The translations under genes and the position numbers were made by a program. A DNA stretch of 64,000 nucleotides from Candidatus Bathyarchaeota archaeon A05DMB-5 (GTDB taxonomy: Archaea > Thermoproteota > Bathyarchaeia > Bathyarchaeales > Bathycorpusculaceae), in contig JABFQP010000004.1 of assembly GCA_019685655.1 (NCBI GenBank), positions 1-64,000 of the forward strand, read 5' to 3'. Position 1 is the first letter of the stretch, and every line of letters begins with the position of its first letter. Positions 60,209-64,000 of this stretch are shown one piece after another. Below the pieces are notes generated by a model. The model was not told the origin of the DNA. It did no database searches and was given only the letters and a program-made list of their open reading frames with translations.

Positions 60209-61141
60209 TTAGGGTAATCCGATAACTTCCTTCAAAAATGCCTTGTATGGACCAAGCTTTCCGCCATAGTTGCCTGCTGAAATTCTTACAACGCCTAGCA
60301 CGCTTGCTGCAGCTTTCACTCCTGCGCTCATAGCCTTTTTTACAGCATCCACTGTCAAACCATTAACAACAATTTCGTAAACGCAATTTACGCCTTCTGA
60401 AAGCTGAGAATCCGGCACAACGGTTCTTAATCCGGGACAGAATGGATGGTTAGTTGATGCTTTAAGCTTGTATTTTAAAGAACCCGCCTTAGAGCCTGAA
60501 CGGCAGATTCCACCGGGAAAAGGCATTATTACTTCACTTGCTTTGGCTTTGATTGCGTTTACTGCTTCTTCCGCCGCTTTTAGTCCACTTAGTTTGTCTT
60601 TAGCCATGATTAGGAAGTTTCCACCGGCAACGGCTTCTACGACTCCGAAAGTGTCTTCAACTATGAAGTCTCCTTCCATGACTGGAATTTTCCAAACTTT
60701 TCTGTTGCCAACCAAACCTTTTCTTTGGAAACCATCGCCGAACAATCGTATGGCTCTGCCAACTTTCAGTTTCCTTTTAGCATTAGGTAAGGCGTCAAAG
60801 GCTGAGGTGGTTGGACAAGTCATTATGCATTGTCCTATTCGCGTTATCATCTGGTTTTTCAAGTCGAACCTATTGCGGTTATATATCTGGATTAAAGCGC
60901 CTACGCGGTTGTCGGGGGTTTTGTCTGCTGAGACAACGCCTTCCAAACTTGCTTCAGCTGGTGACATGATTACGCTTGTTGCAAAGCCTGTTGCAACTGC
61001 TGCAGCTGTCAAAGCCCATTTTTCATTGTCAGCCGTTATTAATACGCGTCCAGCCCATAATGGAAACATCTCAGCAAAGGTGTCTACAATTTCGCACGTG
61101 TTTCCGTTTTCTGCTTTGTAAATGAATTTTTCTTCGGTCAT
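60209..61141 (-). CDS. mch: Methenyltetrahydromethanopterin cyclohydrolase
   Basis: About 310 residues from ATG 61141 (the frame opens at 61159). Signature segments ICRSGSKAGSLKYKLKAST (with NHPFCPGL following), KRKLKVGRAIRLFGDGFQ and the N-terminal NTCEIVDTFAEMFPLWAGRVL match Mch. It interconverts N5-formyl- and N5,N10-methenyl-H4MPT in the methyl branch of the archaeal Wood-Ljungdahl pathway. Divergent from Mtd across a 190-base gap. No Ftr or Fwd genes are in the window. Confidence 0.93.
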   Translation of the reverse strand: MTEEKFIYKAENGNTCEIVDTFAEMFPLWAGRVLITADNEKWALTAAAVATGFATSVIMSPAEASLEGVVSADKTPDNRVGALIQIYNRNRFDLKNQMITRIGQCIMTCPTTSAFDALPNAKRKLKVGRAIRLFGDGFQRKGLVGNRKVWKIPVMEGDFIVEDTFGVVEAVAGGNFLIMAKDKLSGLKAAEEAVNAIKAKASEVIMPFPGGICRSGSKAGSLKYKLKASTNHPFCPGLRTVVPDSQLSEGVNCVYEIVVNGLTVDAVKKAMSAGVKAAASVLGVVRISAGNYGGKLGPYKAFLKEVIGLP

Positions 61142-61272
61142 GCGTTTGTTCCTCTTCACGGAATTTTACTATACAGAAAAGAGGAATTGGTTTAAATTCT
61201 TTGGCATTTATGGCATTGTTAGAAGCCCATCATAAAATGGCTCTGAATCTCTTTAAACCGTAGTCGTGAAAT

Positions 61273-62328: not shown

Positions 62329-64000
62329 ATGAAATCACTTGAAATAACTCCATTAGAAGGAAAAACGTTAAGGGTCATAATTGTAGAAAAAGAATACAGC
62401 GAGCCCTTCTGGCTTACAGAACCACAAAACAACTGCACCCCCAAAAACCCCCTTTCATCCGTTTTTAAACCATCCATCGCCTTCACTAATTTCCTCGAAA
62501 AACTTGTTGACGAGGCAAACCCTGACATTGCAACAGAAGAACAGGGAAACCGTTCTGTCGAGAAACTGGGCCAAAATAATGTTATTGCCCAATTGTTCCA
62601 GAAAAAAAGAATCCCCTTCTCGCTGGTAGACATTGACGAAAACGCTAAAGGCTATCTAATTTCCCTAATCGAAGAAAAGAAGCAACTCAGAGACCGCATA
62701 GTCGAAGCGCTAGAATCGCTACCATCCAAAGAAACCGACACACAAAGCATTGAAGAAGAATATCTTATGGCTTATGGGCAATGTTTGCAGCAAGAAATAG
62801 ATGAAATGGAACGGGAAGCAAAGTTCTCAGTAAGGGAAAGTTGGATTGTAATGGGCATCCTTGAAAACGCTAAGAAAATCGAAAAAGAAGAAGTTACATG
62901 CCTTCACCTATCCAGTCCAGAGCACGTCAACGGCGTAAAAAAGCTGCTGGAATCAGTGGATGTGGAAGTAGAAACAATTCAGCCTACAAAAAAATTACTT
63001 TTTTCAAACAAAAAAGCACCGCCAGAAGAACTTGAAGATTTGCTAAGGTCTATGCAAATTCAAATCAAACCTGTAATCAAAAAAACTGCGGAAGAAGCGC
63101 CAAACATACTCTTCTTTCTGGACACGGACAAAAGAGCAAGCCCCTTTGACATTTGCATGGCATACGACGCAGGATTCAGTGTAGTAGTGCCCTATGAGAA
63201 CGTGACGCCAGAAGAAGCAAAAAGAATAGTGCAAGACGCCATCTTCTCCAGAGACCCAAAAGGAATCAAACACACAACATTCTTCATAGGCGGAAAAGAC
63301 ATGGAAAAAGCCGAAGAAGTCTTAAAAGTTGCTCGTGACTCAATGTTTCCACCTTTTGAGGCCAGCACGATAATCGACCCAGCCGGAGCCTACACGACAG
63401 CTGCTGCCATGATAGCGAAAGTCGAAGAAGCCTTAACGCGTTCAAAACTTGGAAACCTAAAGGACAAACGTTGCGCAATTTTTGGCACAGGCGCTATTGG
63501 AAGAGTTGCGGCTATTCTTCTGGCAAGACTTGGATGTGATGTCAAAATTGTGAGTCCGAATCCAGACCGCGCTGACGGAGAAGAATACGTTGCAAAACTG
63601 GCGAGTATGCTTCAAAGCAAGTACGGTGTAACTGTGGAAGGAGTTTTCGCGCCGACACCAGCGAAGAAAGTGGAGGTTATAGAAAAATCAGATGTAATAT
63701 TCTGCGTCTCCGTAGCGGGTGTTCGAATAATCAGTAAAGAAATGCTTAATGAAATTAAGCTTGCAAAAGTAATTGCTGACGTAAACGCTGTCCCACCATT
63801 GGGAGTTGAAGGAATAAAACTTGAAGACGACATGAGAGAAATAGCTCCGGGAATCTTCGGCATTGGCGCATTAACCATTGGCAGGTTGAAATACAAGCTG
63901 GAGCGAGAAATTCTTAAGGAAGCACGAAGAAACGGAAAAGGCACAATATACAACTATAACTATGCATTCCAGTTAGCAAGAAAAATCTTGAAAGGAGAAA
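62329..64000 (+). CDS. MtdB-like NAD(P)-dependent methylene-H4MPT dehydrogenase with a ~255-residue N-terminal extension (3' end cut by window)
   Basis: One uninterrupted frame of 557 codons from ATG 62329 with AAAGGTGA seven bases ahead. From about residue 256 it reads as MtdB: ILFFLDTDKRASPFDICMAYDAGF, IFSRDPKGIKHTTFFIGGKDM, DPAGAYTTAAAMIAKVEEAL and the Rossmann block CAIFGTGAIGRVAAILLARLGCDVKI. MtdB is usually about 290 residues, so only its last few are missing. The first ~255 residues (helical, with LVDIDENAKGYLISLIEEKKQLRD and CLHLSSPEHVNGVKKLLESVDVEV) are not an MtdB part and I do not recognise them; a faint TraB-like pattern is possible. Placed 104 bases after mtd, same strand. Confidence 0.85.
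   Translation, partial: MKSLEITPLEGKTLRVIIVEKEYSEPFWLTEPQNNCTPKNPLSSVFKPSIAFTNFLEKLVDEANPDIATEEQGNRSVEKLGQNNVIAQLFQKKRIPFSLVDIDENAKGYLISLIEEKKQLRDRIVEALESLPSKETDTQSIEEEYLMAYGQCLQQEIDEMEREAKFSVRESWIVMGILENAKKIEKEEVTCLHLSSPEHVNGVKKLLESVDVEVETIQPTKKLLFSNKKAPPEELEDLLRSMQIQIKPVIKKTAEEAPNILFFLDTDKRASPFDICMAYDAGFSVVVPYENVTPEEAKRIVQDAIFSRDPKGIKHTTFFIGGKDMEKAEEVLKVARDSMFPPFEASTIIDPAGAYTTAAAMIAKVEEALTRSKLGNLKDKRCAIFGTGAIGRVAAILLARLGCDVKIVSPNPDRADGEEYVAKLASMLQSKYGVTVEGVFAPTPAKKVEVIEKSDVIFCVSVAGVRIISKEMLNEIKLAKVIADVNAVPPLGVEGIKLEDDMREIAPGIFGIGALTIGRLKYKLEREILKEARRNGKGTIYNYNYAFQLARKILKGE

Follow-up and report, generated by a model that had tools for sequence, protein, structure and literature searches.

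We found that, in the class Bathyarchaeia, an MtdB-type dehydrogenase fused to a 255-residue N-terminal domain (N-domain) occurs almost only with the F420-dependent dehydrogenase Mtd in the same genome. This co-occurrence is our principal new finding, and it suggests that the N-domain helps both enzymes to work together. With moderate confidence, we read the protein jointly as an NAD(P)-dependent MtdB with a TraB/TIKI-fold N-domain, which controls or docks the dehydrogenase beside Mtd. Bathyarchaeia are abundant sediment archaea, and the wiring of their Wood–Ljungdahl branch to F420 and NAD(P) is at stake. A literature search, with most subscription journals outside it, returned no report of the N-terminal fusion, of its TraB likeness, or of its tie to F420-Mtd; nor did we find an assay on any member.

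The window, i.e., the whole stretch of 64,000 nucleotides that was analysed, ends within the fusion gene. The features are collected in Table 1. The unbroken frame of 557 codons described in the original prediction was present at 62329–63999. Its 3' end, which was to be sought outside the window, was located by reading the host contig; the stop ends at contig position 64062, giving a protein of 577 aa in full (host locus L037:7330-9063). The host genome (G000; 1.51 Mb in total, 98.6% complete) carries the gene on contig 4.

Table 1. Features of the mtd–fusion region, in window positions.
Feature	Position	Strand	Basis or remark
Ftr, formylmethanofuran:H4MPT formyltransferase, divergent from mtd	60209..61159	-	PF01913/PF02741, TIGR03119
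Mtd, F420-dependent methylene-H4MPT dehydrogenase, 301 aa	61320..62225	+	PF01993 2e-116; NF002162 above cut-off
Fusion gene, N-domain and MtdB-type methylene-H4MPT dehydrogenase	62329..64000	+	Continues beyond the window to contig position 64062
N-domain (residues 1-255), alpha/beta, TraB/TIKI-like but divergent, carrying a long helical hairpin	62329..63093	+	Model, TraB match
E20-K-E-Y-x-E-P-F-W28 motif after strand 1, invariant except residue 24	62386..62412	+	
E71-x-G-x-R75 motif after strand 2, E/G/R invariant	62539..62553	+	
C-terminal TraB-like stretch F166-xx-RE-x-WIxM175 ... H193-xx-SP-x-HVxGVKKLLE	62821..62955	+	hhalign, rank test
MtdB/MtdA-type methylene-H4MPT dehydrogenase domain	63094..64000	+	Mpt_N (PF09176) and Rossmann NAD(P) domain (GTGAIG)

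The fusion gene is genuine and intact, and no artefact. An alternative entry to its frame exists at ATG 62266, 21 codons upstream of 62329. The start at 62329 is preceded by a GGTGA Shine–Dalgarno-like motif, and the start position, this motif, and the MKxLEITPLEGK start are common to relatives. Twenty-four aligned Bathyarchaeia proteins share the fusion; the fifteen named relatives encoding it are all Bathyarchaeota but one, which is labelled uncultured archaeon. The search for the same fusion in related archaea, proposed as a check, found it in about 42 Bathyarchaeia genomes with conserved start site and domain order. A start near residue 250, which would have detached the N-terminal part, was not borne out, since some relatives have V, I, T, or S in place of the sole nearby Met (M242).

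The N-domain is under purifying selection. Its dN/dS values were 0.03–0.09 for the pairs allowing an estimate; since dS was saturated in several pairs, the closer pairs (0.07–0.09) provide the safer figures. Across 24 sequences, the N-domain had 39 invariant positions out of 220, and the MtdB domain 83 out of 298. By these figures, the N-domain is a functioning protein domain, evolving somewhat faster than the dehydrogenase. That the N-terminal part is instead a gene of its own or an upstream region that is not translated, joined through a misplaced start or a faulty assembly, is hardly credible. The separate N-domain copy in G209 is all that would suit this explanation, while the same single frame recurs in about 42 genomes, its start is conserved together with the Shine–Dalgarno-like motif, no internal start is conserved near residue 250, and the dN/dS values show that the N-part is conserved as a protein. 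We rejected this explanation on account of the conserved start, the variable M242, and the purifying selection. It is also very unlikely that we are dealing with an ordinary MtdB whose extension is a relic or neutral and was inherited with a cassette. Several clade members do without the extension (L105, L106, L112, and L114), but the invariant N-domain positions and a dN/dS far below 1 argue against neutrality.

The dehydrogenase domain spans residues 256–555. MtdB signatures had been claimed from about residue 256, and similarity to MtdB indeed begins at residue 259. The MtdB identity was supported by a Mpt_N (PF09176) match at residues 272–352 (4.4e-31, 107 bits against a gathering cut-off of 27) and by alignment to solved MtdA/MtdB structures. 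Using phmmer, residues 259–552 aligned with PDB 6tge, 6tlk, and 1lu9 (E about 5e-36), full-length, including the Rossmann domain and the C-terminal LK-x-KL segment. K521 was invariant in the alignment of the 24 Bathyarchaeia proteins. These matches identify the C-terminal domain as a predicted methylene-tetrahydropterin dehydrogenase whose NAD(P) fold is of the Rossmann type. H4MPT is its most likely pterin substrate, given that the window encodes Ftr and the neighbouring F420-dependent Mtd, and that Mch is encoded elsewhere in the genome (G000:C6). The NAD(P) cofactor and the reaction direction of the fused dehydrogenase we only infer. The MtdB/MtdA enzymes of methylotrophic bacteria (1lu9, 6tge, 6tlk) resemble the C-terminal 300 residues end to end, but their chains of 287–303 aa lack the 255-residue N-domain. 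The unfused MtdB of other Bathyarchaeia belongs to the same enzyme family (in this clade, 36–43% identity to the window domain) and is often found beside Ftr; in contrast to the fusion, it has no N-domain, and its genomes are mostly without F420-Mtd. MtdB-type dehydrogenases have already been noted in Bathyarchaeia, and the unfused MtdB-type enzyme of Bathy-6 was reported to be closer to the NADH-dependent homologue (PMC7886697).

The N-domain profile matched 41 of the 257 genomes of the class Bathyarchaeia, nearly all in frames of 568–607 residues. Together with G194, where the gene is cut by a gap, these make up the fused set of 42 genomes; the frame is incomplete in G045 and in G183, where it meets a contig edge, and an assembly gap cuts it in G195. 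At two loci (L104, L060), the N-domain is broken by runs of N, and the truncated look is due to assembly gaps. Outside the class, 398 genomes drawn from the phylum yielded chance-level matches only. Among the weak matches, one inside the class falls in a TraB protein. In a tree of the MtdB domain (support from a quick search; deep branches long), the short type stood apart from the fused type, with few N-domain losses within the fused clade. Two genomes (G117 and G118; loci L105 and L106) carry two unfused mtdB genes, one per clade, which adjoin and are divergently transcribed. The deep-branching fused member G209 has a stand-alone N-domain gene (260 aa, L059:5876-6658) just upstream, overlapping the fusion start, and an NfnAB-type NAD(P)/ferredoxin flavoprotein-like pair downstream. 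This arrangement fits a pyridine nucleotide role.

Mtd is located 103 bp upstream of the fusion gene on the same strand. The two enzymes share the reaction and are neighbours and genomic partners, but Mtd (PF01993) belongs to an unrelated protein family and uses another electron carrier. Mtd was present in 39 of the 42 fused-type genomes, gap-cut cases included, as compared with 2 of the 69 genomes with unfused MtdB only. Fisher's test gave p 6e-24 for this difference; it ignores relatedness, and because the genomes are related, the value overstates the link. A stronger indication is that five genera (g8, g11, g20, g28, and g43) hold both states, and Mtd accompanies the fused form in each, so two alternative dehydrogenase modules alternate within genera: short MtdB alone, or F420-Mtd with the N-domain–MtdB fusion. 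Mtd also occurs in 83 genomes that lack MtdB altogether, and the fusion therefore looks like an accessory to Mtd. F420 ligase failed as a marker dividing the two genome types, being present in all 46.

In most relatives having both genes, Mtd adjoins the fusion, usually just upstream. The two genomes that have Mtd with unfused MtdB only are special cases. Mtd is in two pieces in G120, and in G026 it is joined in frame straight to MtdB, with the N-domain missing (L107:2439-4208, 590 aa). Either the latter protein is a dehydrogenase bifunctional for F420 and NAD(P), or this single draft genome is misassembled there. The window order aRF1–Ftr, then Mtd–fusion–PhoU, corresponds to aRF1–Ftr–MtdB in G036, and the Mtd–fusion unit thus appears to be swapped as one module. 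The co-occurrence could also reflect the inheritance of one mtd–fusion cassette instead of functional coupling. The PhoU protein (L037:9070-10086) has an AbrB/MazE-like N-terminus; its gene and the fusion gene lie tail to tail, here and in most relatives whose contig extends there.

These observations bear on the possibility that the N-domain neither senses nor catalyses but is a scaffold, tethering MtdB to Mtd or to the H4MPT enzymes at large. The tight co-occurrence and adjacency with Mtd are in line with it, as is G026, where Mtd itself replaces the N-domain, as expected if the N-domain unites the two enzymes. G026 is, however, one draft genome, and a pure scaffold does not obviously need the invariant polar residues at the strand ends described below. 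We consider a bare scaffold unlikely.

The original prediction described residues 1–255 as a distinct helical domain. Both sequence features named there, LVDIDENAKGYL and HVNGVKKLLE, are present, and the domain is distinct, but it is helical only in part: AlphaFold predicts an alpha/beta domain (mean pLDDT 79.9), with strands at 13–20, 67–71, 97–100, 188–195, and 213–224 and a long helical hairpin at 104–182, between strands 3 and 4. The full-length model reached a pTM of 0.46 and does not fix the relative arrangement of the domains. Residues 1–255 and their homologues gave chance-level matches only in Pfam and NCBIfam, e.g., RdRP and glutaredoxin. A sequence-profile search of the PDB with the N-domain gave no match, nor did tblastn searches of plasmids with the N-domain and with TraB.

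Structure comparison, which had been suggested with Foldseek on a predicted model, pointed to TraB in one of two databases. Among the viral proteins of BFVD, a single match was significant, to a Marseillevirus LCMAC201 protein of the TraB family (E 3.8e-4, probability 1.00); its TM-score was low, at 0.32. Against the PDB, the matches were RecA/GTPase-like only, with a TM of about 0.24, and not significant. For the sequence comparison, a Bathyarchaeial TraB set was gathered using PF01963 and a profile built from its matches; the N-domain HMM weakly matches the same G042 protein as PF01963. hhalign of the N-domain against the Bathyarchaeial TraB profile aligned about 45 columns around RExWIxM...HVxGVKKLLE, with a probability of 73-74%. 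When 209 proteins were ranked by hhalign, 189 of them non-TraB background, TraB proteins filled ranks 1–10 and made up 20 of the leading 28. In the front half of the N-domain, neither a sequence similarity to TraB above background nor a TraB preference was seen.

The N-domain, alpha/beta with a helical insert in its model, may share this layout with TraB/PrgY/GumN and TIKI proteins, and its C-terminal R-E-x-W-x-x-M ... H-V-x-G-V-K-K-L-L matches Bathyarchaeial TraB. From the TraB (GA)xHVxGI motif and the preceding RxxxM-type helix, H-V-x-G-V is kept, and GA is replaced by SPE. The domain differs from TraB/PrgY/GumN in its fusion to a dehydrogenase, in falling below Pfam detection (no PF01963 match in the window, in 19 homologues, or in the whole genome at E <= 10), and in lacking the N-terminal GxxH motif. 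The invariant EKEYxEPFW after strand 1, where no His is conserved, probably stands where TraB proteins have GTxH, and by eye E71-x-G-x-R75 may be compared to TraB ELDxxR. Because Pfam fails and GxxH is replaced by EKEYxEPFW, we regard the domain as TraB-like but not as a TraB family member. The earlier proposal "perhaps TraB-like" gains support for the fold and the C-terminal motif, through the profile ranking and one structural match, but not for plain family membership. TraB likeness in these two respects is supported but not proven: over about 45 C-terminal residues and one structure match of TM-score 0.32, the domain distantly resembles TraB.

In the predicted model, the invariant polar residues E20, E22, Y23, E71, D101, S196, and H199 are at the ends of strands 1–4. 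Since this is the usual site in alpha/beta proteins, the N-domain likely carries a putative ligand or active site. TIKI hydrolases have a 2His/2Glu active-site set (PMC6254334). This set is incomplete in the N-domain, with only one suitably placed His (H199), E71, and E20/E22, the first His being missing; the invariant residues may nevertheless sit where a TIKI fold would keep its active site. The N-domain might be an enzyme in its own right, similar to TIKI/Ere-type hydrolases but with a changed active site; its substrate would be a pterin, a one-carbon compound, or a compound related to a cofactor, and the fusion would serve channelling. We find this somewhat unlikely. The clustering of invariant charged residues at the modelled strand ends would agree with it, E71 and H199 are possible counterparts of the catalytic Glu and the second His of TIKI enzymes, and the domain is fused to a metabolic enzyme; in G209, the fusion also has an N-domain gene of its own next to it. 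However, the first-motif His is not kept, its place being taken by Y23 and E20/E22, and no known pathway enzyme was found missing for the N-domain to replace. Some members of the same MtdB clade have no N-domain, so it seems dispensable for that activity. The earlier idea of a partner enzyme for C1 transfer has nothing in its favour; the most obvious such role, standing in for the cyclohydrolase Mch, is unlikely, because Mch is encoded elsewhere in the genome and in nearly all fused-type genomes.

In the control or docking reading, the fused dehydrogenase would work in the archaeal H4MPT branch of the Wood–Ljungdahl pathway, catalysing methenyl-H4MPT + NAD(P)H <=> methylene-H4MPT + NAD(P)+. 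Mtd, encoded just upstream, would run the same reaction with its other electron carrier beside the fusion protein. Two carriers on one step would create a risk that F420H2 is drained into NAD(P), or would allow the deliberate use of this drain. The N-domain would control or dock the NAD(P)-linked dehydrogenase through ligand binding or contact with Mtd; it would prevent an uncontrolled F420H2/NAD(P) short circuit and let electrons be moved between the pools on demand. We favour this role because of the drain risk and because the curated model of the F420:NADP reductase NpdG (TIGR01915) was above the cut-off in none of the 20 fused-type genomes checked. Most unfused genomes lack NpdG as well, so its absence does not mark the fused type. 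The source of F420H2 in Bathyarchaeia has been noted as unclear (PMC7886697). The regulatory or ligand-binding role first proposed is plausible and gains indirect support from the co-occurrence with F420-Mtd; the role itself we infer. A more elaborate version, doubtful in our judgement, would make the N-domain a TraB-derived redox/C1 sensor gating a pterin-mediated transhydrogenase, in which Mtd and MtdB run in opposed directions and F420/NAD(P) exchange is switched on and off.

The system offers a clear test of one archaeon running two dehydrogenases with different cofactors on one step. If the TraB link is true, a fold known from signalling and proteolysis enters the control of central carbon metabolism. 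Another fusion was observed among the pathway genes. In G211 and G210 (L115:2776-4620 and L116:4075-5880; family f18), Mch is fused behind a GXGXG domain of the formylmethanofuran dehydrogenase subunit C type, and FwdA/FwdB-like genes directly adjoin.
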